Origin: Paracyclopina nana
Taxonomy: Eukaryota > Arthropoda > Copepoda > Cyclopoida > Cyclopettidae
Assembly: GCA_019096065.1 (NCBI GenBank)
Contig: JAGUCH010000002.1
Span: 10,924,501-10,988,500 of the forward strand
Reading direction: 5' to 3'
Length of the DNA: 64,000 nucleotides
How positions within the stretch are numbered: the first letter of the stretch is position 1; each line of letters begins with the position of its first letter. The notes beneath the pieces are model-generated. The model was not told where the DNA came from. It searched no databases and was given only the letters and a program-made list of their open reading frames with translations. Below are positions 5,301-19,775 of the stretch, piece after piece. A program made the position numbers and the translations under genes.

Positions 5301-6210
5301 CCTGACTGGACCTTTGTTGGTGAAGCACTTTGATGTCAACAAGACCACAGTGTCGACAATGGATGCCAGCATGTTATATGGCATCAGCTACATTCTAACT
5401 CAGAATGACCCAAAAGATCCGGACAGGAGCTATCTGATTAACTGTGGGTCCAAGGTCAACTCCGCTACTGAGAAGAATTATGCAACTAATGAGTTGGAGT
5501 TGCTGTGGATAGTCTATGGTTGTGAGAAGAGCTCACATTTTCTGCATGGCTGCCCATTCAACTTCAATTTGTTCTACCTTGAGGGGAAGTTAAACTTCAT
5601 TGGAGATGCCTTGTCAAGGCACCCCATTAACTCCTCAGATGACCACCCAGACACTGAAGAATCAGAATCTTTGAAGAAATCAAAGATCAGCGTAATATCA
5701 GCCCTCTCTGTCTCAGCAAAATGAAGATCCCAAGTTCCAAGAAATCCATGATGCAGCAAAAGCTGACAAGGAGTATCAGGATCTAATTGAGGCCATCCAG
5801 GGAGACCTTCATCATCATAAGAAGAAGGGAGTGGCCATTCAGTATTGAAGCTGGTGCCCCAAAATCTTTGGGGGCAGCTTTCGGTTCAAGATGGAATGAA
5901 GTTATTGATGGGATACATGTCTTCGTACCATCTTGAGGACTCTTCATATTGCGCACCCTGGGCAAACAAAGAGCGTGGCAACGGCCAGACAGTTCTACTT
6001 TTGGAGTGGTATGTCCAAGGATATCAGACAATCAGTAGAAGAGTGCAAAATGTGCTAGAAGTACATGGCCTCTTTACCGCATGATGAAGAGGGCGAGACC
6101 ATGGTACCAACGGCCCCAATGCAGAGTATTGCAATGGATATGGGTCATCATGAAGGGGCAGACTAATTGATAGTTGTGGACACCTTCAGTGGTTGGCCGT
6201 GGATTTTCAA
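2350..6210 (+). pseudogene. Decayed Ty3/gypsy-type LTR retrotransposon (gag-pol remnant)
   Basis: Several broken frames give gypsy-type pieces in the expected order. There is a Gag-like stretch (2664-3703) ending in a CCHC zinc knuckle whose middle is hit by a TGA near 3701. An aspartic protease DTGA motif lies near 4206-4218. Reverse-transcriptase fragments follow (4570-4830, with VDDVLIW at about 4920), then a region with the SFLGL signature and RNase H-like sequence (5040-5640) and an integrase core piece (VVDTFSGWPW near 6172-6205). Stops and frameshifts occur in every domain, so it cannot be autonomous. I could not define its LTRs. It lies directly beside the fold-back array and upstream of the intact BEL/Pao element. 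Confidence 0.8.
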
Positions 6211-6909
6211 GATGCTAGATGGTAAAATACACTAGTGCATAGTGAGGAAATCAGCAAGAAGTTGACGATCATTTTTGCCACATGTAGTCAGCTTGACTTC
6301 GGGTTCCTATTAAACCACAGTGCTAACTTTTGGCGTTGTCCACTCTCTAAGTTTATTAAGTAGATAACCCTAAATGAGAATTCGGGCGATTTGGCGGATT
6401 TTCTCGTGCACGTGAAAACCGCTTTTTGACCCATTGCGCTTGAGCTTTATTGCGAATAAAAAGTTAGCTTTTGCACCAATGAGGAAATAGTTTTAGAAAT
6501 AAGGGAGGAGCCATAAACAACCAATTATTCAATTAGATCTCAGTATTTAGGAGAAAACCACAACGCACAAATTTTGGCTTTTGCAAACTCAAAATAGATT
6601 AAAAGTTTGACTTTGGCTCATATTTTGTGTCAAGTTGCCTAAAATTATCCGTTTTCAGCTGACATTTGGGCTCAAAATTGACATCGTCAAGAATTTCGTG
6701 TTTTCCCAGCTATTTTATTGGGTGTTCATCTATGCCTCGTTTGCCTGGATCAGGTGGTTATTTCACCGCAAATTTGAGCGCCGTAATTGCGATGCAATTG
6801 TCAACATAACAGTGATCAGCTGGTAATTGTAATCCAACTTTTGCTATGTGCAAAAATTACTTCTAACTGGTTCACTAAGCTTCTAGGTTACCCACCTGCC
6901 TACCCTCAC
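6211..6909. other. Sequence between the gypsy relic and the BEL/Pao element
   Basis: No gene recognised. It may include the lost 3' end of the gypsy relic. The last bases (CTACC at 6910-6914) are the left copy of the BEL/Pao target-site duplication. Confidence 0.4.
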
Positions 6910-6914
6910 CTACC

Positions 6915-7140
6915 TGTTTGGGCTCCCGCCTATCTATTGTATTGTGACACTCTTATGTGAGCTCGACCTACTATTCGATCTTTCATGTTTATGTTTACGT
7001 TAGTACGATTTCGGATTTCACCTTGTGTTAGTTGAATAAATCTCGACTACTACATAGAAATCACCGTCGTGCTGGATTTTATGCATATCTCGACTTTATT
7101 ATCGTTTTATTGCATCGACGACTCTCGTTAGATTCATACA
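6915..7140 (+). repeat. 5' LTR of the BEL/Pao element (226 bp)
   Basis: It begins TGTTTGGGCTCCC and ends GATTCATACA, and matches 17266-17491 with no visible difference. It has an AATAAA-type signal (GAATAAATC) near 7035. It is preceded by the target duplication CTACC and followed directly by the primer binding site. Confidence 0.95.
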
Positions 7141-7160
7141 TGGCGACCAACCGGGTTCGA
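7141..7160 (+). promoter_or_regulatory. Primer binding site, probably tRNA-Arg type
   Basis: The 20 bases right after the 5' LTR start TGGCGACC. Their reverse complement reads as a tRNA 3' end: T-loop TTCGA, acceptor strand TTGGTC, discriminator G, then CCA. A G discriminator with a GGTCG-CCA end fits some animal tRNA-Arg species. The isoacceptor is inferred, not confirmed. Confidence 0.75.
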
Positions 7161-7263
7161 GGACTCACGCAAGAGATGAAAAGTGGATTCTTGCATGCTC
7201 TAGTGATCCGACATTACTACTGAGACAGCTGACTCTAGTGTAATTTTAAGTGATTTTATCTAC

Positions 7264-7332
7264 AACGGGGAGACAGTCGGGTCTCCTGTTCGAGTTCATC
7301 CTTAACGGGGAGACAGTCAAGTCTCTCGTTAA
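7264..7332 (+). promoter_or_regulatory. Two tandem leader hairpins (candidate packaging or dimerisation signal)
   Basis: Two copies of AACGGGGAGACAGTC each fold on themselves. The first (7264-7290) pairs GGGAGAC with GTCTCCT around loop AGTCGG. The second (7302-7332) pairs GGGAGAC with GTCTCTC around loop AGTCAA and extends through AAC/GTT. Position shifts between G-C and G-U pairs keep both helices. A third copy of AACGGGGAGAC (7330-7340) runs into a different small palindrome, ACCAGCACTGGT, just before the gag ATG. Placement between primer site and gag is where retroelements keep packaging and dimerisation structures. The role is inferred. Confidence 0.65.
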
Positions 7333-7358
7333 CGGGGAGACCAGCACTGGTGCCACGG

Positions 7359-10300
7359 ATGTACCAGTCTGGCAAGAAGACCAAGAGTGGACGAGTGGTC
7401 AGGCCTCCACTGAAGACTCACGGTGGGGACTTTGACACGGCAACGAAGAGAACAAAGAAGTCAAGTGTACAAGACAAGCAGCTACGCTCTGCGGAGGCTG
7501 AGTGGCAGTTTGACGAGGACTCATTGCTCTTCATGAACGATCAGGAGGAAGTGATCGCAGCTGGAGGAGAAATTCTCCCGGGATACGATACGCTCCTCAA
7601 TAACGTCACGATGGCGTCAATGGATGGAAACGTGGCAGCACCAGCCCATAGCAGAGACATGTGGGTGGATGCTTTAAAAAGTGTCAAGGACGCCATGGAC
7701 AATCATGTGAAGGCATTGGGCGAGAGGCTTGATGCCGCCAAGACTGCGGACATGGCGGAGAAGATCAAGACCCAAATAATGGGGTTGAAAAAGGAAATCG
7801 CGGACGATGTGGCAACTTGTCGACCATTGGTTGCTGAAGCGGATCTCAAGGATTTCGAATATCAGGTCTCATTGATCCACTATCAGCTTGCCACTTATGT
7901 CATCAGGGCGTCAAGGGTAGTCAAGGACAAGAGAATCAATGATCTTGACAATCCACCTACTACTGACCCAGCAGCGGCTTCAGGTGCTGATGCGGGAACA
8001 GTGGTGGCCGATGCAGACTCTCAACACGAGGAGGGGCTACAATTGAACGATGACGCTCAACCTGACTCAGTGGAGAAGGTGATTGAAGAGCTGGATGGCA
8101 TCGTGGATCAACTCAAGAAGGCAGACAAGTTGAGGAGAACACTTATGGTCGGCACGGGAGCTTACAAGGATCAAGAGACGCTGATGGAGAGTGCGAACAA
8201 AAGAAGAAAGGAGCTTGAAAATACCGTGCAATGCATGAGCGCGGATGACCGCAGGAAGTTTGATATGCAGAAGGTAGTCTTGATGAGCAAGGAGATTGAC
8301 AACCTTATGGACTTCTTGAATCCTGACCACCAGAGACGGCGACCTCAAGCCAACAACAATGCACCCCCAGCAAGGACCAATTTTAGAGATCCACCCCCAC
8401 CGGATGACAACAACTTCGACAAAAGAACCTACAACTTGGGCATGCCAACTGTCACGCTGTCGAGTGAGCTTTATGAGAAGAAAATTCAAGAAGAACAATC
8501 GTATCTGGCTCAAGACACCATCATTGACCAGGTGCGAAGAAGAGCTCAGGCCGACATCGACTGGAACGATCTTTACGAGGGCAGAAACTTGTCACAGTTC
8601 TACGATCCAGGAATGGCCAGAGAGATTGTCAGGGATGACGTCAAACCCATGTATTTCAATGGCACTGGTGAAGTCACCTACAGGGACTTTAAGGAGTATA
8701 TTCACGCTGGCATAGTCATGAAGAGGAACATGAATTGGTTCGAAAAATGTATCAAGCTTAAAAACTTGTGCACCGGACCAGTGAAGATCAAAATTGCTAG
8801 ATGCAGTCTGTCTAAGGATGGATTCATTGAAGCACTACAGAAGCTGGACAGTGATTATTTGGCCCACAGGGATGAGGCAGAGGAGGTTATCCATGACCTA
8901 CTCATTAAGATGAGAGAGAGACCGCCGATCTCAGTGCGAGATCTGAACTCAGTGGAGGCAGCTTTGGTCATCATTGAAGAAATAGTGGATTGCAATGGAC
9001 GAGCTGGCAAGGATCCGACTGAGGGCGAGGCGTCGATCCTGTCGAACATCCGCATGGATAGCATCACGGCAAGAGATTACAGGGATTTCAAGGAAAAGAA
9101 ACTGCAGTCAAGAAATTCCCTTAGACTATTTATCACGTGGGCCAAAGTGCGCATTAGAGATCAATTGAGAGCCAAAAGGACAGACGCATTGCTCAAGAAC
9201 CTCACCAAGACTTTCGATGACATGGAAGTCAAGGAGGATGACCATCGACCCTGGAAAAGAAACGACAAGTACCGTGCAAAGTACAGACAAATTAAGGAAG
9301 CCACGGGGTTTGTCGATGATGACTCAGACGAATACTCGTCCAGTGATGAGAGTGAGATAGTTGCCCTCGCAAAGGAGAAGCAACAGTGCCTAGTGTGTCA
9401 ACAATTTGGCCACAGGGGGTTTGAGTGCACAAATTGGAGCAAACAAAATCTCAGGGAGGTGGTCCAGAGAATGGAGAATGCCAAACTTTGCAAACGATGC
9501 CTACAAGGCAGGCACACGATGGACAAGTGCAAGTCGACCGAGAAATGCGACAAATGTGGAAGTATGGAACACCACAGCAAGCTTCATCATGCTCAATCAA
9601 AGAAAGTGACCTCTCTGGCTACCACCACGCAACCTCAGAATGACCTGAAGAAACAACTCACTGATTGCTTGATGAATGCAGTCAGACTTCTCAGTGAAGA
9701 TGCTACTCTTCTCACCCAGGACCTCGGGTGTCCTGGGGATGAGAGTGGTGAAGAAGAGAATATTGAGATTGTTGGATTTGCGAGTGATGTATCGAGGTCA
9801 TGGATGACAGTGCCGGTGGAGATCGCCACTGGGGCGGATTTTGCCAGATCGGTGGAGACAAATGCACTGTTGGACACCGGATCGAGCGTGACTCTGTTGC
9901 AACCACACATAGCCAAAGTCATGGGAGCTAAGGGCAAGAGAAAGAGCATGGCAGTGCAGGTGGTTGGAAACAACCAAGTGGTAAAGCAGCCCTCATTCAA
10001 AGGTACCATGTACATTAGGGCCAGAGGCACTCAAGAGCCTATTTTCCAACTTAAATTCAGCACGTTCAACCTGCCTATTGCGATCCAACCTGTCGACCCC
10101 AATAGAATCAAGAGCAAATATGAGGAGCTGAAGATGATTGAATTCCCAACTCCTGTTGAGGGAGATCTGGGACTCCTGATTGGCTTCGACAACATGCAGC
10201 TCATGACGAGTGAGAAGGACACATACGTGAAAGGAGGTCCATTGGCAAGGAAAACACCACTAGGATGGTCAATGCTGTTCCATCCAAAAACTGGTGGCGT

Positions 10301-13300
10301 CGAGGCCACTGCGTTCGTCAGCGATTGGAAACAATTCAACCAGTGTCAAGCAGTTTGTGATACTGAGATGAGATACTTGTTGGATAGACAATATGGACTG
10401 GAGTCCATTGGCATTGATAGAGCTGAGCAACCATCAACAAGGCTCACCTTGGCGGAGGAGATAGCCCTAGCAAAGATGAAGGAGACATTGAGGAGGCTGC
10501 CTAATGGTCTATATGAAGTGGGCATCCCATTCAAGGGCGATACACCACAGCTACCGGACAATTTCAAACAGTGCTCAGCGATTCAGAAGAAACTGGACAA
10601 GAAACATGAGCAGGATCCAAATGTGGCCAAGGCTGTTGTGGACACGATGGCAGAGTACGAGCGACTTGGAATAATCGAACCCGTCCCAGCTTCAGAAGTT
10701 GGGACCGGGTATTTCCTGCCAGTTTTTTGTGTCCCCAAAGAAGGCAGTGAGACAACCAAGTATAGATTTGTATACAATGCAAAGCAGAACTTCGAAGGTA
10801 CATCCATCAACGAACAAATGTACACAGGCCCCAACTACTTAGACGACATCTACGACACAATGGTGCAGTTCAGAGTGGGAGAGGTTGCGGTTGTTGGCGA
10901 CATCGAGAAGATGTACCTGATGATCTCATTGCCAGAAAAGGACAGGAAATATGTGCGAATTGTGGTCAACGGGAGACAAATGCAATTTTGCCGATGGCCA
11001 TTTGGACTTAGAGCGGCACCCAGTGTGGCAAACTTTGTGGTGAAACATCACATAAAGCAACATGGATCTCAGCTACTCCAAAAGAAGGCCAAGATATACA
11101 TGGATGATTTTATCGTGGCCTTTGAGACCTTGGAAGAGGCCAAGGAGGTCGTGGAGGAGATTGTGCCGCTCATGAGCTCGTGTGGAATGGAACTTCGCAA
11201 GTTTGTCTCTAATAAGCCAGAAGTTTTACAAGGACTTGACAAGAAGAGACTTGGCAAGGCCATGGTTGTGGGCACATCATTGGAACCAGTAGTGCATTCA
11301 ACGTTGGGATTGAAGTGGGAACCTACGACTGATCACATTGGATACGCGCTGTCAAAAGTGGAACAAAGAGGTGTCACTAAAAGGATCATGTCAAGTCAAA
11401 TAGCATCTGTTTATGATCCACTGGGAGCCTTGACGCCTTGCCTGCTGAAGGCCAGGAAAGCTCTACAACTGGCCCACAAAGCAGACAAAGACAAGAAGTT
11501 GAGCTGGGACGATGAACTCACTAAAAGTGACCACCCACTGGTTCTGGAATCAGTCAAACTTTGGAAGCAATGGCAGGAGGAGTTTGAAGAGATGACCATA
11601 GTGAGATATCCAAGAATGGTAGCCCCAAGGATCGATGAAAACACCATCTTGCACATGTGTAGTGATGGCTCAGACCTGGCCTTTGCAACGACGGCACATA
11701 TTGCATCAGCGAATGGTTCACACAAGCCAGGATGGTTGACAACCAAGGCAAGGATACAGGGAGTCAAGCAGAGGACGATTCCAGAGGTTGAATTAGCAGG
11801 AGCCTTACTTAGTGCCAGATTGTCCAACAGACTGATTAACTTGTTGTTTATGGGCAGAGAGGCTGTTTGGTATTGGGTGGACAACACGTCTGTGATCTGC
11901 TGGATAAGAAAAGCTGGAGTGGACAGATCAGTCTATGTCAGAAATCGAGCGATTGAAATCTCTGACACTACGATTGTTGAGCGATGGAACCACATACCAA
12001 CTGATCAAAACTCGTCAGATGTTGCCACTAGAGGATGCTCTGGCTCTCAACTTGCTCAGCATAACACGTATTGGAGCGGACCAGAATATTTCGCTGAAGA
12101 CATGACGAACTGGAAGCTGATGAAGCTTAAAGTTACTGAAGAAGAACTAGCTGGAACAGGTCAAATTTCACTGATGAGCAAGGACCTCGGGTGTCCTTGC
12201 CAGGTGGAGATCAATCAGCTGGGAATGATCCAGGACCATGTGGTCAAGCTGGGTGATCAATGGAGGCTACAAGAAAGCCAGGAGATCTTTGTGCAAATGA
12301 AACAAGTCCTCCATAGCCGCAATGTAGGAAGATGGTCCATCATGGTCAGAGCAATTACAAGAGCGCTGTTGGCCTGGCAAGGAGAGAAGACTGAGGACGA
12401 GCTGCCGTTGGACAAAATGGCGGATGTGGCCAGAAGGGTGCTAATCTTGGGACAATGGTTGAAAATGGAAAAGGACATCAGGAAGTTCCTAGCCACAAAT
12501 AAGTGGCCACAGACCACAGAGAAGCATCTGGCACTGGCGGTTGGAGATGATGGACTCATTAGAGTGCACAGCCGATTGTACAATCAAGAGTATGTGGCAC
12601 AATCTCAACAATATCCCATATTGATGGTGGATTCGTGGCCATTTGTGTTATATATGTGGACTCTACATTTCACGACGAACCATGTGAGGAACGACGATTT
12701 GTGGTACAAGGCGATAAGAGTCTTCGCTGGTGCTGCAGTGAAGAAAATATCGAGGAGGGTTTCCAGTGAATGCGTCCAGTGTAGGAAACTTCACTCACCA
12801 ATGTCGAAACAACTCATGGGGTCGATTCCAAATTTGCAGTTGAATGACATCAGACCTTGTTCGAAGATTGCGATCGATTTCACTGGAATACAATACGTCA
12901 AGTTCTTCAGAAAAAGGATCCCAGCATACATTCTAGTTGCGGTCTGCCTTCAGACAAAGGTAGTGACTTTGGAAGTCACCATTGGTCAAAATACTGAGGC
13001 AGTGATCATGGCTTTGTCAAGAATAGCAGCTAGACGAGGACCCATCGAGGAATGCTTCTCGGATAATGGAGGCAGTTTTATCAAAGTGAAGAGACTGCTC
13101 ACAAAGGAAGAGAAGAAGCAAATGGCAATGGGACCACAAAATCTCAACCACTCGGTGGACAAGATTAACTGGAAGAAAGTGCAGATGGAAACAGTGAGAT
13201 TCATTAGAAAGTGGAACATGAATGCGCCCAGAGACCACGAGGCCAATGGTCAAGTGGAGGCCTTTGTGCGGCTAGCCAAGAGGGCCGTGAAAGATCACAT

Positions 13301-13805
13301 TGACCAGGGCGAGGTGGACCTGGAGATATTCAGAACTTGGGTGTCGATGGCCGAGAATGTTGTTAACTCGAGGCCCATCGCAATTGTTGAGCAAAGTGAC
13401 GGAGAAAAAGTAATCCTGACACCCAATCACTTAATCGTGGGCAGGTTGGGTGACACAGGAGTATTCTCAAGGGATGGTGAATTGTCCCACGATCTCCATA
13501 TGCTCGCCGGAAGACTCGACAGTTTTGAGAAGACCTGGACAAACTATTACCTGGCAACGATGCAAGAGAGAGGAAAATTTTTATCAATGACGGACAATAT
13601 TCAAGAAAATGACACGGTTGTGGTGGCCGAAGAAGATTTGAAGATTAAACGTGGAAAGTGGACAATTGGAAGAGTGATTAGAGCGATCAAGAGCAAAGAT
13701 GGTCTTGTACGCAAAGTGGTCGTGAAACATCGTCATGGCATTATTGAACGTGGAATTCGTCAGTTGATTCCACTGCCAACGCTTCCATTCATCAAGCTAG
13801 ACTAA
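7359..13805 (+). CDS. BEL/Pao Gag-Pol polyprotein
   Basis: Uninterrupted ORF of about 2148 codons from the ATG at 7359. The N-terminal Gag half is charged and partly coiled. Zinc knuckles lie at about residues 676-745: two CX2CX4HX4C (CLVCQQFGHRGFEC and CKRCLQGRHTMDKC) and one CX2CX4HX4H. An aspartic protease with LLDTGSS is near residue 837. The reverse transcriptase carries YMDD near 1246. RNase H with CSDGSD is near 1432. The integrase has an HHCC-like region (CVQC near 1805) and catalytic D, D and E near 1837 (AIDFTG), 1900 (SDNGG) and 1962 (GQVEAF). All signature residues are present, so the enzyme set looks functional. Gag and Pol share one frame, as in many BEL/Pao elements. Two of the loop-conserved hairpins lie inside it, at 9715 and 12178. 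Confidence 0.95.
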   Translation: MYQSGKKTKSGRVVRPPLKTHGGDFDTATKRTKKSSVQDKQLRSAEAEWQFDEDSLLFMNDQEEVIAAGGEILPGYDTLLNNVTMASMDGNVAAPAHSRDMWVDALKSVKDAMDNHVKALGERLDAAKTADMAEKIKTQIMGLKKEIADDVATCRPLVAEADLKDFEYQVSLIHYQLATYVIRASRVVKDKRINDLDNPPTTDPAAASGADAGTVVADADSQHEEGLQLNDDAQPDSVEKVIEELDGIVDQLKKADKLRRTLMVGTGAYKDQETLMESANKRRKELENTVQCMSADDRRKFDMQKVVLMSKEIDNLMDFLNPDHQRRRPQANNNAPPARTNFRDPPPPDDNNFDKRTYNLGMPTVTLSSELYEKKIQEEQSYLAQDTIIDQVRRRAQADIDWNDLYEGRNLSQFYDPGMAREIVRDDVKPMYFNGTGEVTYRDFKEYIHAGIVMKRNMNWFEKCIKLKNLCTGPVKIKIARCSLSKDGFIEALQKLDSDYLAHRDEAEEVIHDLLIKMRERPPISVRDLNSVEAALVIIEEIVDCNGRAGKDPTEGEASILSNIRMDSITARDYRDFKEKKLQSRNSLRLFITWAKVRIRDQLRAKRTDALLKNLTKTFDDMEVKEDDHRPWKRNDKYRAKYRQIKEATGFVDDDSDEYSSSDESEIVALAKEKQQCLVCQQFGHRGFECTNWSKQNLREVVQRMENAKLCKRCLQGRHTMDKCKSTEKCDKCGSMEHHSKLHHAQSKKVTSLATTTQPQNDLKKQLTDCLMNAVRLLSEDATLLTQDLGCPGDESGEEENIEIVGFASDVSRSWMTVPVEIATGADFARSVETNALLDTGSSVTLLQPHIAKVMGAKGKRKSMAVQVVGNNQVVKQPSFKGTMYIRARGTQEPIFQLKFSTFNLPIAIQPVDPNRIKSKYEELKMIEFPTPVEGDLGLLIGFDNMQLMTSEKDTYVKGGPLARKTPLGWSMLFHPKTGGVEATAFVSDWKQFNQCQAVCDTEMRYLLDRQYGLESIGIDRAEQPSTRLTLAEEIALAKMKETLRRLPNGLYEVGIPFKGDTPQLPDNFKQCSAIQKKLDKKHEQDPNVAKAVVDTMAEYERLGIIEPVPASEVGTGYFLPVFCVPKEGSETTKYRFVYNAKQNFEGTSINEQMYTGPNYLDDIYDTMVQFRVGEVAVVGDIEKMYLMISLPEKDRKYVRIVVNGRQMQFCRWPFGLRAAPSVANFVVKHHIKQHGSQLLQKKAKIYMDDFIVAFETLEEAKEVVEEIVPLMSSCGMELRKFVSNKPEVLQGLDKKRLGKAMVVGTSLEPVVHSTLGLKWEPTTDHIGYALSKVEQRGVTKRIMSSQIASVYDPLGALTPCLLKARKALQLAHKADKDKKLSWDDELTKSDHPLVLESVKLWKQWQEEFEEMTIVRYPRMVAPRIDENTILHMCSDGSDLAFATTAHIASANGSHKPGWLTTKARIQGVKQRTIPEVELAGALLSARLSNRLINLLFMGREAVWYWVDNTSVICWIRKAGVDRSVYVRNRAIEISDTTIVERWNHIPTDQNSSDVATRGCSGSQLAQHNTYWSGPEYFAEDMTNWKLMKLKVTEEELAGTGQISLMSKDLGCPCQVEINQLGMIQDHVVKLGDQWRLQESQEIFVQMKQVLHSRNVGRWSIMVRAITRALLAWQGEKTEDELPLDKMADVARRVLILGQWLKMEKDIRKFLATNKWPQTTEKHLALAVGDDGLIRVHSRLYNQEYVAQSQQYPILMVDSWPFVLYMWTLHFTTNHVRNDDLWYKAIRVFAGAAVKKISRRVSSECVQCRKLHSPMSKQLMGSIPNLQLNDIRPCSKIAIDFTGIQYVKFFRKRIPAYILVAVCLQTKVVTLEVTIGQNTEAVIMALSRIAARRGPIEECFSDNGGSFIKVKRLLTKEEKKQMAMGPQNLNHSVDKINWKKVQMETVRFIRKWNMNAPRDHEANGQVEAFVRLAKRAVKDHIDQGEVDLEIFRTWVSMAENVVNSRPIAIVEQSDGEKVILTPNHLIVGRLGDTGVFSRDGELSHDLHMLAGRLDSFEKTWTNYYLATMQERGKFLSMTDNIQENDTVVVAEEDLKIKRGKWTIGRVIRAIKSKDGLVRKVVVKHRHGIIERGIRQLIPLPTLPFIKLD
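9715..9737 (+). other. Loop-conserved hairpin 1 (in gag-pol)
   Basis: CCCAGGAC pairs perfectly with GTCCTGGG around loop CTCGGGT (8 bp). It is read in frame as D-L-G-C-P between the zinc knuckles and the protease. Confidence 0.85.
12178..12200 (+). other. Loop-conserved hairpin 2 (in gag-pol)
   Basis: GCAAGGAC pairs perfectly with GTCCTTGC around loop CTCGGGT (8 bp). It is read in frame as D-L-G-C-P, between RNase H and integrase. Outside the GAC/GTC closing pairs and loop, the stem differs from hairpin 1. Confidence 0.85.
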
Positions 13806-13811
13806 AACTAC

Positions 13812-13863
13812 GTAAGTCAGACCACAAAACTCTTCCTAAAAGAACATTTCCACTAATTTCTAG
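13812..13863 (+). other. Possible 52-nt intron or splice sites between the two ORFs
   Basis: A consensus donor (GTAAGT at 13812) and an acceptor (CTAATTTCTAG ending at 13863) lie just after the gag-pol stop, 52 nt apart, which is the host's usual intron size. Splicing would not join the ORFs. The acceptor could instead serve a subgenomic mRNA for the second ORF. Not demonstrated. Confidence 0.35.
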
Positions 13864-13988
13864 TCAAACACCACAATTTTATCTGGTACCGCTGCATCTC
13901 GTGTAATTGACACAGAAATATCTGGCAGCGCTTTTCAAAACAAAATTCAGTTGACCGCGAAAAATTCCGCCAAAACAACAGAGGCAAA

Positions 13989-16900
13989 ATGACGAAGCGA
14001 AGACGATCGGCGAGCAAAAAAAGCTCAACATCTGGGGACGATTCACCCCGGAGAGACCTCGGGCGTCCCTCCGGGCGAAAATCGGCCAGGACAGTTGTTT
14101 TCGCCAGCGACGAAGAAGAAGCGATTCGACAGCTTTACGTTGTCGTCTCCAACACTGCCACAGAAGATGGAGAAGTGGCCGGCCCATCTCAACGAGGAGC
14201 CATCGACAGGGTAGACCTGAACGAAGCGACTGAGGCCCGCGAAATCATGAACGCCACGGGCATAGAATATGTGCATGTTTTTTCCGCCACGAAGGGAGCT
14301 TTGAAGACCACCTTTTTGACACTATTCAAGGACCCGGGATGCATCATCATGGGCGACCAGTTTAATTGGGGCAGAAGAACTCCAACGGACAACAGACCCG
14401 GCGAGAAGAGAAGAAAAGCACGCAGGCAAGATGTTCATCGTTGCTTCCGTAGTTATATTCTTAGGGCCAGAGGGCTTTCACTTTTGGAGGCCATAATGTT
14501 TTCGTACGGCCATGTTTTCTTGACTGTATTGGAGATCAAGAAGGAGGTTAATGATTTGGAGATGGACGAGCCCCTCAGCACAATCAACAGAGCTCGATGC
14601 TTTGAGATCGCCAAGGCCCTCGGCAACTACATCATCAACTCGGCCGATGCAGAGGAGCGGGGAGTTCTCCAATCATTGGAATCGTCGGCCCTTACCACGC
14701 CGAGGATCATCAGGCTGTACGAAGAAGGCCAGGTTGACAACACACTGGTCATTGATAAGGTGGGCATGCGATTGACGGCTGAGGAGTTGAAGATGATAGC
14801 TGAGAGAGATCAGCTCCCCCCCACGGCATTGGCGGACAATTTGAGGCTGCTCGAGTCCATGAATGATGCGGTCAGAGCAGCAGAAGAAGCGAGGGCCATG
14901 GTCTTCGCCAATTTGCTCAAGTTGCCTAGGTCTCAGTTGGCCTCAACCGAGCCCGACCTCGGGTGTCGGGCCGGTGAAGGGTCTATCGAGATCAGGGAGG
15001 CGACCAGTGAAGATGAGGCGGCCATGGAAGTCGAACCTGCCGCCGAGGTGATGACGCAGAAAGAAGAGGTCGAAGTATCACGATCTGCTCAAGATGCTCC
15101 AGTTGTCGAGCCAGCACCACAGGACAAGATCTTGGAAGAAATGGAGGCTTTGCTGGCGTCCGATGAGGACGAGCCCACCAATCAAGAATCTGCAAGAGAG
15201 GTGGAGCCTGAGCCAGTGGCCTCTACCTCGGCCCAAGCAGATGAGCGCGAGGCTGAAGAGGTGACGCCACCTGCAGTAGAAGAAGACGATGATTGGGGAC
15301 AAGCCATGGATGCTATTCGCAGTCGGGCTGCGAGCAAGGTCGTTGCCACGCCCACAACCGAGATTGTCCCACCACCCGCGGCAACCCAGACGGTGGAGAC
15401 TTGCAGTTTTGCCATGCAAGTGAAAGAAGAATGGATTGCTGCTGATATGGCCTCATCGACGCCTCTGCCAAGAGTAATTCCGGCAGGCATGGAAGAAGAA
15501 TTGGACCTCAAAGAAGAGGGGCGTCGATTGATGGAGGTGAGCCATTTGCCAACTGCTGGATATGAAGCCATCACGCCGGACGAGGAGTACTTGCACAAGT
15601 TTGACAGGAAGACTCATCGTTGCCCAGACATTCGAGTGGGTAAGATTATGCAAGTTGCCTTTGATCCTATGAAAAAGAAATGTGATTGGTCAGCGTGCGC
15701 TGTTCGACAAAATATTTTGCCGTCGGATTGCATTGAGGTTTCTGCTGCCGTCGCCCCGGTTGTGACGGTGCAGGATGCCGAATTGCGGTCTAGAATGGGG
15801 GCCAGATCTACATATGATCTGACCACTAAGAACCTGCGCACGACGTATGTTTATGGGCTGACCAAGTCGCACAATAATTGGACCAGTAATGATTGGGACG
15901 AGATTGACTACCGACTCACGGCACGCAACTTCTATTCCAACATTGAGCGCTATCGCATGATGACAATTGATCAGGAGGGCTTCCAGGACAAGCTACGCAA
16001 CGCATGTGCCAAGGTTTACCCGCCCACGGTCTCCCAATACAAACACGCATCGGCCTACATTCACATGGGCAGTCCAGAGGGCATTGCTCTGGGCATTCGA
16101 GTAGCCTTCGTGGGCCCTCGGTTTCTGGGCGTGGCTGTGCCGGAGAAGATCAAGAAGTTGCTGGAGTCAGAGAAGATCTTCAAGCTGGGTTTTGGCATCC
16201 AGGGTGATTTGGAAGACTTCGCGGAGATGGGCATCACCATTCGCAATTGGGTTGACGTTGGACATTGCAACTTGCTACTCAATCCTGCGGCGAAAGTTGG
16301 TAAATGGGAAATGCTTACGCTCCTGGGTGTCAAGCACACTATTCGAAAGCCCAATTTTGCCATTGACAATTATTCGGGCTTCACCGATGAGATGTCCCAA
16401 GAAGTCGTCAGATATGACAGGGTCGACCAATTCGCTCCATTCGCTGGCATCCTGAAGGTGGCGGCCTTGGTGGCTAGAGCTGAAAATATGGGTAACAATG
16501 ATAATGTTTATCCGTACGTCATTGTGTTGTTGTCGCTCCTCAGTCACCGCCCGGTGATGATCAGGGGTCAGAAGATGAGCACGATCGCCGGCCTCCTCCC
16601 AGACCTCGGGTGTCAGGGAGAGGCTGCGAGACTGCTTCGTGAGGAATTTGGAGCCTACAACAACTTTAGACTAGTCCTTCAACGTTGGCAACAAGTGGGG
16701 CTGATTTTCCCAATGACGATTGGCCTTCTGCCAACAGCCTCAGCAGAAACTATCAAGGATCTTGAGTTTCTCATGGGCGCCCCAATGCGTGAATGGCATC
16801 TACCGCATGTTGTCCTCGCCCAAATCGATCGAGTGATTGGTGTCAGTGATGAGGTGGCAGCTAAAGAGTTGCGACTCTACCCTCACGCTTGCCTTGTGTG

Positions 16901-17195
16901 CGGTGGATTTGACCACACGGCTGCCGACTGCAAGAAGACGCCTACCTGCCTCAACTTACTATGTGATGGTGGTAACCACGCCGCCGCGGTTTGCCCAGTT
17001 ACCAACGAAGACTGTGTTTTGTGTGGTGGCCGCGGCCACAACAGAGGTCATCATGGACGCTTTGATATCGTGCAATTGTTGATGGCTGTGCGTTTGGCAT
17101 TTGTGCAGCATGTTGCATATGCCAAAGCCCTGGATAAGACTGGACGGGTGCTGATTCGTCCCATCAAGGAGGGTATTCGCCCCTTCCGTTGCTGA
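13989..17195 (+). CDS. Accessory ORF of the BEL/Pao element: exonuclease-fold and zinc-knuckle protein
   Basis: Intact ORF of 1068 codons with a basic, Ser-rich N-terminus and an acidic middle (about 340-480). Around residues 690-840 the pattern resembles the RNase D/WRN-type DEDDy 3'-5' exonuclease fold: KIFKLGFGIQGDLEDF near 727 (motif II Asp in GIQGD) and VVRYDRVDQFAPF near 803 (YX3D, motif III). The motif I position reads GSPEG, so the first Asp of DxE seems missing and the fold may be catalytically dead. Residues about 966-1020 hold three zinc knuckles: CLVCGGFDHTAADC, a CX4C variant, and a CX2CX4HX4H. This repeats the element's own Gag layout. No signal peptide or membrane segment is evident, so an Env role is unlikely. 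Three loop-conserved hairpins lie inside it. The exonuclease assignment is pattern-based. Confidence 0.85.
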   Translation: MTKRRRSASKKSSTSGDDSPRRDLGRPSGRKSARTVVFASDEEEAIRQLYVVVSNTATEDGEVAGPSQRGAIDRVDLNEATEAREIMNATGIEYVHVFSATKGALKTTFLTLFKDPGCIIMGDQFNWGRRTPTDNRPGEKRRKARRQDVHRCFRSYILRARGLSLLEAIMFSYGHVFLTVLEIKKEVNDLEMDEPLSTINRARCFEIAKALGNYIINSADAEERGVLQSLESSALTTPRIIRLYEEGQVDNTLVIDKVGMRLTAEELKMIAERDQLPPTALADNLRLLESMNDAVRAAEEARAMVFANLLKLPRSQLASTEPDLGCRAGEGSIEIREATSEDEAAMEVEPAAEVMTQKEEVEVSRSAQDAPVVEPAPQDKILEEMEALLASDEDEPTNQESAREVEPEPVASTSAQADEREAEEVTPPAVEEDDDWGQAMDAIRSRAASKVVATPTTEIVPPPAATQTVETCSFAMQVKEEWIAADMASSTPLPRVIPAGMEEELDLKEEGRRLMEVSHLPTAGYEAITPDEEYLHKFDRKTHRCPDIRVGKIMQVAFDPMKKKCDWSACAVRQNILPSDCIEVSAAVAPVVTVQDAELRSRMGARSTYDLTTKNLRTTYVYGLTKSHNNWTSNDWDEIDYRLTARNFYSNIERYRMMTIDQEGFQDKLRNACAKVYPPTVSQYKHASAYIHMGSPEGIALGIRVAFVGPRFLGVAVPEKIKKLLESEKIFKLGFGIQGDLEDFAEMGITIRNWVDVGHCNLLLNPAAKVGKWEMLTLLGVKHTIRKPNFAIDNYSGFTDEMSQEVVRYDRVDQFAPFAGILKVAALVARAENMGNNDNVYPYVIVLLSLLSHRPVMIRGQKMSTIAGLLPDLGCQGEAARLLREEFGAYNNFRLVLQRWQQVGLIFPMTIGLLPTASAETIKDLEFLMGAPMREWHLPHVVLAQIDRVIGVSDEVAAKELRLYPHACLVCGGFDHTAADCKKTPTCLNLLCDGGNHAAAVCPVTNEDCVLCGGRGHNRGHHGRFDIVQLLMAVRLAFVQHVAYAKALDKTGRVLIRPIKEGIRPFRC
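14047..14075 (+). other. Loop-conserved hairpin 3 (in accessory ORF)
   Basis: CCCGGAG-A-GAC pairs with GTC-C-CTCCGGG around loop CTCGGGC: 10 bp with one A/C mismatch. It is read in frame as D-L-G-R. Confidence 0.8.
14951..14971 (+). other. Loop-conserved hairpin 4 (in accessory ORF)
   Basis: GCCCGAC pairs perfectly with GTCGGGC around loop CTCGGGT (7 bp). It is read in frame as D-L-G-C-R. Confidence 0.8.
16591..16624 (+). other. Loop-conserved hairpin 5 (in accessory ORF)
   Basis: GCCT-c-CTCCC-a-GAC pairs with GTC-a-GGGAG-AGGC around loop CTCGGGT: 12 bp with one A/A mismatch and one bulged C. It is read in frame as D-L-G-C-Q. Confidence 0.8.
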
Positions 17196-17256
17196 AAATT
17201 CTGCTAAGTCGCGCTGAAAATTCCTGTGATGTGTTCGAGCTTGATCAAGATGTCCC

Positions 17257-17265
17257 AGGGGAGAC
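17257..17265 (+). promoter_or_regulatory. Polypurine tract
   Basis: AGGGGAGAC directly precedes the TG of the 3' LTR, the expected site for plus-strand priming. Confidence 0.75.
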
Positions 17266-17491
17266 TGTTTGGGCTCCCGCCTATCTATTGTATTGTGACA
17301 CTCTTATGTGAGCTCGACCTACTATTCGATCTTTCATGTTTATGTTTACGTTAGTACGATTTCGGATTTCACCTTGTGTTAGTTGAATAAATCTCGACTA
17401 CTACATAGAAATCACCGTCGTGCTGGATTTTATGCATATCTCGACTTTATTATCGTTTTATTGCATCGACGACTCTCGTTAGATTCATACA
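17266..17491 (+). repeat. 3' LTR of the BEL/Pao element (226 bp)
   Basis: Matches the 5' LTR at 6915-7140 with no visible difference. The right copy of the target duplication, CTACC, follows at 17492-17496. Confidence 0.95.
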
Positions 17492-17875
17492 CTACCTACC
17501 CTATGTAGGTGTGAAGGTGAGTCCACCTACCTTGCCCAATAAGAAACGATGGCTTCTGTTACGTAGTACAGTCAGCGCGCCCTGGCGTGAAAAGCCATTT
17601 TCACTACAGACCCAACCAGAAATTCTGAGCCCTCATACGCCAAATAAACTCTCAGTGAAACTTATACGTTTATACGTATACATATATATGTAAACAAATT
17701 ATAAAACAGGCTTACAAAATATCTGAGCTCATTTTGCAAAGTAAAAATCTCGTGGCATCACTTGGCTCTCGCAAGCTCGAGCCCGCAAAAATGCCACTCG
17801 ATTTTCTTTACAAAATTTGCTCAGCTACTTTATTAGCTTGTTTTATAAATTGTTTACATATATAAATAGATATTC

Positions 17876-17996: not shown

Positions 17997-18278
17997 GAAT
18001 GCATTTTGTAATTTCAGTTCTTTCCTTGATTTTTCATAAGTTTGGATTGAGTCAGAAAAATGGAGTTCCAGCTCCGGCTGAACCCAACTTCTTTGGCAAA
18101 AAGTGACCGCTAGACATTACAGAATAATGTATATTTCGAGCTGGGGCACGTAAAATTGAGTCATTAAATAGCTGACCTCGGATTTTGATATTTCAGCGCA
18201 AAAAGTTGAAAAAACCGATTTTTGTTATTGGCCTATGCGGAAAAAATTGCCATCCGCGGACCCAGTGTGCAATGGGAT

Positions 18279-18410
18279 TCCGGGACCCGTGGGATGCCGA
18301 GACCCGCGGGATGACGGGACCCGCGGGATGCCGGGACCCGCGGGATGCCGGGACCCGTGGGATGCCGGGATCCACGGGATGCCGGGACCCGTGAGACGTC
18401 GGGACCGGTA
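18279..18410 (+). repeat. GC-rich minisatellite, unit GGGACCCGCGGGATGCC
   Basis: About seven tandem copies of a 17-bp unit with point changes (GTGGGATGCC, CACGGGATGCC and similar). It is GC-rich and strongly self-complementary (CCCGCGGG) within AT-rich surroundings. ORFs here are artefacts. Confidence 0.85.
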
Positions 18411-18824
18411 ACACACTAGGAGCGGCGGGACGCTGAGACCCGGGACCTATTGTACACCCGTACCAGTTTCACGTCGGGACCAGTTGGACGCCGGGTCCAG
18501 TGAGAAACAGAAAATCGCAAGATTCATCTAGCTGTACCCCTCAGTGAGCCGTGGCCTAGTCATGGCGTGAAACACCTCGCCTAATTTTTCATAATTTCCG
18601 TGAGCTGGATAAGTGCTCCTGCGCTCAGCAAGGGCAACAAGCCACTCTTCATGGCAAGTTTCAAGTTTTAAACTGAATTCTATTTCGCTGTGCTCGGAGC
18701 AGCGCGTATTTCCATACATATCTACTTGATTTATATGGGAATAACCCTCGCTGCGCTCGTCGCTGCGCTTTATTAAAGTAAAATGGAATACATTGGCCTT
18801 AAAGTCATTGCCATGTTTGTACTG

Positions 18825-19560
18825 TTCGACCAAAAGGCCTCAAAAATTGAGATTATAAGCCCATTTTGCCTTGATATGTCATGCTGTTCGACCAAATTAC
18901 AGTTTTTAGGCCTTTTTAGGCTTATTTTTTGCATTCATGATTTCTCCAGTCGACCAAATTTCAGTTTCTAGGCCTTATTCAGCCATTCTTTGCATTTTTG
19001 ATTTTTTCAGTCGACCAAATTTCAGTTTCTAGGTCTTTTTCAGCCATTCTTTGCATTTTTTATTTTTCCAGTCGACCAAATTTCAGTTTTTTGGCCATTT
19101 TCAGCAATTTTTTGCATTTTTGACCTAATAATTCATGGTATTTCCAGTCGACCAAATTTCAGTTTCTAGGCCTTTTTCAGCTACTTTTTGCATTTTTGAT
19201 TTTTCCAGTCGACCAAATTTCAGTTTCTAGGCCTTTTTCAGCTGTTTTTTGGATTTTTGATTTTTTCAGTCGACCAAATTTCAGTTTCTAGGCCTTTTTC
19301 AGCCATTCTTTGCATTTTTTATTTTTCCAGTCGACCAAATTTAAGTTTTTTGGCCATTTTCAGCAATTTTTTGCATTTTTGACCTAATAATTCATGGTAT
19401 TTCCAGTCGACCAAATTTCAGTTTCTAGGCCTTTTTCAGCTACTTTTTGCATTTTTGATTTTTTCAGTCGACCAAATTTCAGTTTCTAGGGCTTTTTCAG
19501 CTATTTTTTGCATTTATGATTTTTCTGGTCGACCAAAAGGCCTCAAAAGTCCTTTTGTCT
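18825..19560 (+). repeat. Satellite-like array, ~60-bp unit with CAGTCGACCAAATTTCAGTTT
   Basis: About eleven imperfect copies of a ~60-bp unit (CAGTCGACCAAATTTCAG, TTTCTAGGCCTTTTTCAGC, TTTTTGCATTTTTGATTTTT). A variant block with GACCTAATAATTCATGGTATTTC appears twice (19120-19145 and 19378-19403) with similar neighbours, suggesting a higher-order unit of about 250 bp. Both outer ends carry TCGACCAAAAGGCCTCAAAA. Confidence 0.85.
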
Positions 19561-19775
19561 TTATGTATTATGCTGCTCCACCAAATTTTAGGGATCATAT
19601 TAAATATGCGACCTGCCAGGCTATAATTACTGTGGTTTTTTTGGTAATAATATAGCGGGCGTTTTAATGATTTATGTATTAGTCAAAGCAAAAAATAATC
19701 ATTTGGCGTCAATTAATATGAGTCAGTGCTTTTTTCAAGTTTCGCCGAACTTGAAGTACTCTCCCGACAATTATT

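Follow-up and report, generated by a model that had tools for sequence, protein, structure and literature searches.

Hairpins with family-specific loops repeated along copepod BEL/Pao retrotransposons: candidate marks of genomic RNA

Introduction

Even for yeast, the way in which a long terminal repeat (LTR) retrotransposon chooses full-length RNA of its own is poorly defined, according to the available part of a review on Ty1 and Ty3, which expects scattered sites outside the 5′ region (PMC4974528). The packaging regions treated there are cis-acting RNA of LTR retrotransposons, as the hairpins described below would be; unlike these, however, the Ty1 packaging sequences lie within 580 nt of the 5′ end, and that part of the text describes no repeated hairpin in them (PMC4974528). 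Here we analyzed a stretch of 64,000 nucleotides from the copepod Paracyclopina nana (assembly GCA_019096065.1, contig JAGUCH010000002.1, forward strand; G000:C2:10924501-10988500 in our numbering), called the window throughout. It carries a BEL/Pao LTR retrotransposon with two open reading frames (ORFs): ORF1 for Gag, protease (PR), reverse transcriptase (RT), RNase H (RH) and integrase (IN), and ORF2 for a putative exonuclease-like protein. Hairpins with closely similar loops are spread along both ORFs. Comparison with relatives in the same genome shows, as far as alignments can tell, that their stems are preserved by compensatory change and their places are old, and that in families A to D the loop is nearly uniform across the phase-0 sites of an element and distinct between families.

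The original prediction, made on this DNA before the present analysis, knew of no described family with such a loop, and this holds for Rfam and for the searchable open-licence papers. The covariance models of Rfam 15 gave 0 matches at E up to 1 in positions 6800-17600. Among the matches listed in the open-licence literature, where absence is no proof, no paper dealt with hairpins of this kind in BEL/Pao elements, and a term search of the available part of the metazoan BEL/Pao survey PMC3118150 returned no hairpin, stem-loop, secondary structure, exonuclease or packaging.

Results

Hairpins in the window and in related elements

The core GACCTCGGG[T/C]GTC was found five times in exact form on the + strand, at 9720, 12183, 14055, 14955 and 16602, in agreement with the five conserved cores of the original prediction, whose coordinates were those of the outer stem ends. 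With up to 2 mismatches the core gave 7 matches, against 1.07 on average and never more than 3 in shuffled sequence. All five cores are read in one frame (phase 0) as D-L-G-C or D-L-G-R, also as predicted. The further claim that none existed elsewhere in the 64 kb stands for the exact core and fails for the hairpin as such, as a search for good stems with a related loop gave a sixth one, H4b, in another phase. The hairpins are as follows.

9713..9739, + strand: H1, loop CTCGGGT, between the Gag zinc knuckles and the protease
12176..12202, + strand: H2, loop CTCGGGT, between the Peptidase_A17/RNase H part and the integrase
14048..14074, + strand: H3, loop CTCGGGC, close to the N terminus of ORF2
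14948..14974, + strand: H4, loop CTCGGGT, in ORF2
15745..15771, + strand: H4b, loop CCCGGTT, phase 2, read as A-P-V-V
16595..16621, + strand: H5, loop CTCGGGT, between the exonuclease-like domain and the ORF2 zinc knuckles
7346..7368, + strand: H0, a tentative candidate, loop CACGGAT, spanning the ORF1 start codon (ATG, 7359-7361)

The stems have 8 contiguous pairs in H1 and H2 and 7 in H4, with one mismatch below the GAC/GTC in H3 and H5.

The genome (92 Mb, 10 contigs) gave 58 matches for ORF2 and 97 and 101 for two pieces of ORF1. To locate sites in these relatives we scanned for stems with related loops, which partly predefines what was found at the inner three pairs and in the class of loop. 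Two further copies of family A, the family of the window's element, are on contigs C1 and C7; they have 73-87% DNA identity in the aligned stretches and a hairpin at all six places, with the core unchanged at most of them; both have an altered core at H1, and the C7 copy also at H3 and H4. Among the elements of families A to D read at these places, H1 was present in 15 of 15 and H2 likewise in 15 of 15, though H2 of one D element has only 5 of the 8 pairs. The ORF2 sites H3 and H4 were detected in 15 and 18 loci, respectively, leaving out those in which that part of ORF2 was not reached or not recognisable (L044 for H4; L037, L050 and L049 for H3). H5 accounts for 10 rows of our table, from families A, B and C, and is also present in L014 and L015, which were not entered, while H4b was found in three A loci and in 6 of the 11 D loci, there with D's own loop. 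The candidate H0 recurs in the C1 copy of family A (L110), and family B has the same loop on a different stem (L100, L101). No such hairpin was found in family C (L102, L115) or in D1 (L103), and the C7 copy of A (L111) is missing the ATG at this place. Absence of the hairpins from related elements, which had been named as evidence against their selection, was thus not what we observed, as the relatives keep them at the same places.

Beyond these families, all four elements of family E (ORF1 identity 51-53%, 47% in one member) have hairpins at H1, H2 and H4, with loops TGCAG[C/T]T at H1/H2 and CGCGG[T/C]T at H4; a loop of CGCGG type is also present in the leader. The leader hairpin precedes the first ATG of ORF1 (L113 228-254; L116 and L117 189-215, minus strand), with loop CGCGGGT in L113 and CGCGGTT in L116 and L117 and a C-G to U-A change in the stem; three of the four E leaders were read, and L116 and L117 had been chosen for their core match at that place. 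In distant BEL elements (24-32%), no such hairpin was seen in six regions near the H1 or H2 place. A match to ORF2 lay within 14 kb downstream in 40 of the 44 loci of ORF1 relatives at >=35% identity (at least 35%) vs 0 of 19 below that value, with all listed rows merged into loci and only scored candidates in the lists. The hairpins and ORF2 thus occur together in this genome, perhaps because they share one origin. A protein search with ORF2 at E 0.001 and a scan of viral contigs with the RT region gave no kin outside it. The genome does not contain the nematode SL1 leader.

Genome-wide, exact cores numbered 19, 43 and 14, vs 4, 4 and 2 for reversed control patterns. We read 11 core matches outside these elements; of the five outer pairs, 10 of these matches have 1-3 and the remaining one has 4, a count that leaves out L126, a probable relative with 3 outer pairs. 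Rows with 4 or 5 of the five outer pairs made up 80 of 82 in families A to D; rows with at least 4 were 4 of 12 in E and 5 of 10 in F; the leader hairpins of E show 3 outer pairs in the ungapped register. L126 itself (C4:5999891), perhaps a further family member, has a partial stem and a D-R-G-C-P core whose peptide surroundings are like those of H1. As a separate observation, 6 of the 11 D loci have an extra weak ORF2 hairpin in phase 2, with D's loop C[CT]TGGTT on a GTC/GAC stem, at these positions:

extra D hairpin, loci turned to the ORF2 strand: L032 2886, L036 2820, L038 2886, L039 2901, L037 2703, L050 2813

Covariation of the stems and coherence of the loops

We compared 54 distinct A-D hairpins of 27 nt each with shuffles. 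In these, 87.2% of the base-pair cells were paired, against 56.3% after shuffling (0 of 500 as high), the covariation score was 0.731 against 0.195, and 166 cells were changed on both sides against 53.6, in a pool that mixes sites and families, where not every cell is independent of the others. When the partner was shifted by 1-3 columns, the covariation score was at most 0.229. The original prediction had read selected structure from the differing stems of a single element; the selection is borne out by the covariation among relatives, whereas the differences among one element's own sites are not in themselves compensatory. Its other refuting outcome, a lack of covariation, did not occur, as judged by the pair-cell score against shuffles rather than by R-scape. 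A covariance model built from 39 hairpins of families B, C and D, without family A, and run at E up to 10, found exactly the six A hairpins in the 64 kb (E 0.0003 to 2.3) and nothing further.

The common plan in A-D is a 7-nt loop C-N-Y-R-G-K-Y on a stem of ~8 pairs, in which any sequence is allowed provided that it pairs. Loop position 1 (C), loop position 5 (G) and the first 3′ base of the stem (G) never vary, and the invariance of C1 and G5 would allow a C-G pair across the loop. The iron-responsive element has such a cross-loop pair with a pseudo-triloop; its loop, however, differs in length and sequence from that of the BEL/Pao hairpins, which have no Rfam match.

The loop is CTCGGG[T/C] in family A, CTCGGTT in B, CGCGGT[T/C] in C and CTTGGTT or CCTGGTT in D. 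With A1, B1, C1 and D5 as representatives and H1-H4 as sites, the mean loop distance within elements was 0.375, and only one of the 13,824 relabellings (mean 1.469), the observed one, was that low. Elements D1-D4 have the same loops as D5 at H1-H4; D6 and D7 have CCTGGTT at H4 too and would be slightly less coherent.

Several known loops were considered and set aside. The 7-nt loop of family A suggested a mimic of the tRNA-Pro(CGG) anticodon, but an anticodon loop has U at position 2 (U33), and this position is U, G, C or A among A-D. Smaug recognition elements have a CNGG loop, which CTCGGTT and CTTGGTT do not contain. The IRE1-type loop, CUGCAGC, resembles only that of family E at H1/H2, which we treated as coincidence. 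Kissing between loops was also rejected, as by eye no self-complementarity is common to all families.

Constraint on nucleotides and on the peptide

In the window, redrawing synonymous codons yielded on average 29.6 pairs and never more than 38 in 2,000 draws, whereas 45 of 48 are observed. With the outer five pairs alone, 27 of 30 are observed against a mean of 16.1 and a maximum of 25 (1,000 draws); the inner three were excluded here because they had helped to choose the sites. In 11 of 11 elements the summed pairs were never reached by this null, whether eight pairs or only the outer five were counted. Between the A copies, the hairpins kept 60 of their 63 four-fold sites unchanged, compared with 817 of 1,831 in the rest of the ORFs (P 2e-17), and in codons for the same amino acid the third base was unchanged in 88 of 96 against 2,536 of 4,598. 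For H4b, two relatives have no change at any of the four-fold sites (18 of 18 kept), compared with 43 of 85 kept in the flanks. D-L-G-C is encoded at H1, H2 and H4 in A1, B1 and D5 alike, with codons CTC GGG, CTC GGT and CTT GGT, respectively. A control peptide, D-P-G-C at ORF2 amino acid (aa) 115, has neither hairpin nor codon coherence. These comparisons show selection on the nucleotides and not on the peptide alone.

The element and its ORF2 protein

The hairpin-bearing element was assigned to BEL/Pao by its Pao-type Peptidase_A17/RT, integrase, LTRs and target-site duplication. Its further features are given here, with the LTR limits and the duplication taken from reading of the sequence.

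6915..7140, + strand: 5′ LTR, ends TGTTTG...ATACA, target-site duplication CTACC upstream at 6910-6914
7359..13805, + strand: ORF1, Gag-PR-RT-RH-IN; the ORF list gives GTG 7350, the likely start is ATG 7359
9387..9596, + strand: Gag zinc-knuckle region, from the sequence and alignment to the ORF2 knuckles
13989..17195, + strand: ORF2, 1068 aa, from the ORF list and relatives in the same genome
15951..16448 (approximate limits), + strand: DEDDy 3′-5′ exonuclease-like domain (D661, E663, D740, Y809, D813)
16884..17060, + strand: ORF2 zinc knuckles, from profile matches and alignment
17266..17491, + strand: 3′ LTR, target-site duplication CTACC downstream at 17492-17496

The two LTRs of 226 bp do not differ (the repeat search gave 227 bp, 100% identical to 17265-17491, including one additional flanking base). 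Within ORF1, Peptidase_A17 (5e-25), RVT_1 (2e-10) and DUF5641 (7.5e-15) were above the curated Pfam cut-offs, and the matches to rve and Asp_protease_2 were under them.

The ORF2 product looks like a DEDDy exonuclease-like protein with C-terminal zinc knuckles. The five catalytic positions D661, E663, D740, Y809 and D813 (D-x-E, D and Y-x3-D) are identical in 14 of 14 aligned ORF2s (the window's and 13 relatives, 26-41% identical). The 3′-5′ exonuclease family PF01612 matched 8 of the 14 at E up to 5, with a best value of 2e-4 and 0.048 for the window, which is under the curated cut-off, and the profile matches to Protein Data Bank entries were weak but in agreement with this (WRN exonuclease 0.019, EXD2 0.024), as were those to CCHC knuckle proteins (best 0.0018). 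The knuckles of ORF2 and Gag are 28% identical over 71 aa (E 0.001, a single comparison). A structure prediction of ORF2 aa 461-1068, made with no alignment, had a mean pLDDT of 31 and no usable fold.

Some other observations were made on the element and its surroundings. In four derivatives (L011, L013, L014, L015), gag/PR (window ~10342) is fused to the end of ORF2 (~16566). The non-autonomous derivatives retain H5 with the ORF2 knuckle cysteines partly gone, which lends weak support only, the copies being 91-99.8% alike. In the 5′ leader, AACGGGGAGAC is repeated three times between 7263 and 7350, together with complementary GTCTC stretches, and GGAGAC occurs three times in each of both family-B leaders; as a guess, the leader repeats AACGGGGAGAC/GTCTC could be dimerisation hairpins. 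After the 5′ LTR, 7141-7165 (TGGCGACCAACCGGGTTCGA) resembles a tRNA primer-binding site. Outside the element, tandem arrays with units of 16, 17 and ~61 bp lie at 1258-2143, 18240-18443 and 18862-19638, the first making large inverted arms, and the degraded DNA at 5500-6250 resembles by eye that of a gypsy-type integrase.

Discussion

We propose that the hairpins would be cis-acting elements in the genomic or messenger RNA of a BEL/Pao clade. A common loop at many sites that shifts jointly between families argues for one co-evolving reader, which would be a single trans-acting RNA-binding protein that reads every copy via the loop and changes together with it. Since the loops are private to families in one genome, this reader would most likely be encoded by the element, as Gag through its zinc knuckles or as ORF2 through its exonuclease-like domain and knuckles; a host protein seems a poorer candidate than either. 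The copies spread over ~7 kb would be bound cooperatively, favour the full-length RNA and mark it for particle assembly and packaging, much as has been proposed for dispersed packaging signals (PMC6281560). Where a family has a copy over the beginning of ORF1 or close to it, that hairpin may in addition shift the RNA from being translated to being packaged. That the hairpins mark genomic RNA in this way is the reading towards which we lean, by little more than an even chance. We hold it possible, though with less assurance, that coexisting BEL/Pao families use a private RNA password, a 7-nt loop particular to each family, present at five to seven hairpins and read by that family's own protein, and that drift of the password blocks cross-packaging.

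The main rival to packaging, an unlikely one, is that the hairpins serve in transport or localisation, with ORF2 or a host protein of the Egalitarian (Egl) type, which has an exonuclease-homology domain (ExoHD), carrying the RNA within the germ cell and several stem-loops per RNA acting jointly. This would fit the exonuclease-like domain of ORF2; in the available part of PMC13186709, moreover, Egl binds stem-loops via a set of domains including the ExoHD and needs two stem-loops per RNA, and work on a retrotransposon RNA that uses the localisation machinery of gurken is cited. A host binder would, however, leave the family-private loops unexplained. Control of translation by hairpins that slow the ribosome between protein domains appears improbable: H1 and H2 do lie between domains, H5 between the exonuclease-like domain and the knuckles and the candidate H0 on the start codon in A and B, but pausing requires no fixed, family-specific loop. 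We consider it slightly less probable still that the protease of the element cleaves at D-x-G-C, at the Gag/PR and RH/IN junctions, with the hairpins as a by-product. H1 and H2 are at the expected polyprotein junctions, the peptide is mostly kept, and family E reads D-C-S-C-P (once D-C-S-Y-P) at H1/H2 and F often G-L-G with P four residues on. Yet one peptide is encoded by differing codons whose choice is coherent within each family, the synonymous null is exceeded, H4b is read in a different frame, the E leader hairpin precedes the first ATG, and the control D-P-G-C has no hairpin. From the shared phase of five sites, some peptide role is possible, and the peptide may be a second constraint besides the RNA hairpin.

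A cause at the level of DNA, either strand switching in reverse transcription that perfects quasi-palindromes or a DNA-binding protein that uses the palindrome, is about as improbable as the cleavage site. It draws on the appositions of G-U and A-C (22 vs 10 in eight pairs, 29 vs 24 over ten), which give no clear excess of G-U outside the innermost three positions, where the scan introduces a bias; strand switching, however, does not explain the coherence of loops across sites, the fixed positions or the conserved loop. None of the results here speaks against a DNA-binding protein. The idea, raised in the original prediction, of palindromic mini-elements of the Rickettsia type inserted in frame into the ORFs could account for a common core in a common phase at five places, and we find it hardly credible, as just 13 nt are common, flanks and stems differ, the places are homologous across families whose proteins are ~36-61% identical to those of the window, and stems are weaker at core matches elsewhere in the genome.

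Several points weigh against packaging by a family-specific reader. All relatives come from one genome, and the choice of reader stays between Gag, ORF2 and possibly a host protein. The set of hairpins is not constant: the scan found no H5 in the 11 D loci, and no H4b in B, in C or in 5 of the 11 D loci; the H4b stem alone did not exceed the peptide-keeping null (P 0.16-0.20; 0.16 in the window's element). In family E the stems are short or interrupted (4 of 8 pairs at H4, 5-6 at H2), and family F (ORF1 38-46%) has stems at several homologous places with mixed loops and some places empty. Loops depart from uniformity in A (CCCGGTT at H4b; CACGGGT at H1 in two copies; CCCAGGT at H3 and CTCAGGT at H4 in one copy) and in D (CTTGGTT at H1 and H2; CCTGGTT at H3, and at H4 in D6, D7 and D10), two loop types are present in one set of E elements, and coherence is weaker in E and F. 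The number of pair positions with change on both sides was no different from shuffles (9 vs 8.2; 180 of 500), the counts of G-U and A-C decide nothing as to which strand is folded, and five of six sites in one phase has a chance of ~0.05 by simple arithmetic.

If the password reading is true, distant loops change together while stems change freely. Sequence comparison alone yields a small testable element, a short repeated loop with natural variants in cohabiting families, of relevance to RNA-protein co-evolution, the orthogonality of coexisting elements and the role of the exonuclease-like ORF of retrotransposons.

Among known systems, the extra ORF has a counterpart in the bdelloid rotifer elements Juno and Vesta, whose ORF3 likewise adds a DEDDy exonuclease beside gag and pol. 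In the available part of that report DEDD is changed to DEED, whereas the element described here is BEL/Pao, keeps the five DEDDy positions and has C-terminal knuckles; the word hairpin is absent from the text on Juno/Vesta (PMC5408684). The signals of the Egalitarian-BicD system are also RNA stem-loops, two per RNA, bound by an exonuclease-homology protein; that protein is cellular, and in the part of PMC13186709 available the signals have no obvious common loop, unlike ours. The likeness extends to the dispersed packaging signals of MS2, picornaviruses and hepatitis B virus (HBV), where, in the accessible portion of PMC6281560, several stem-loops with a short shared motif and variable stems have one proposed reader, the assembly protein. 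Several stem-loops with a common loop motif are found in the genomic RNA here as well, in this case that of an LTR retrotransposon, known from its sequence, with a loop that is near-invariant per element and differs between coexisting families.

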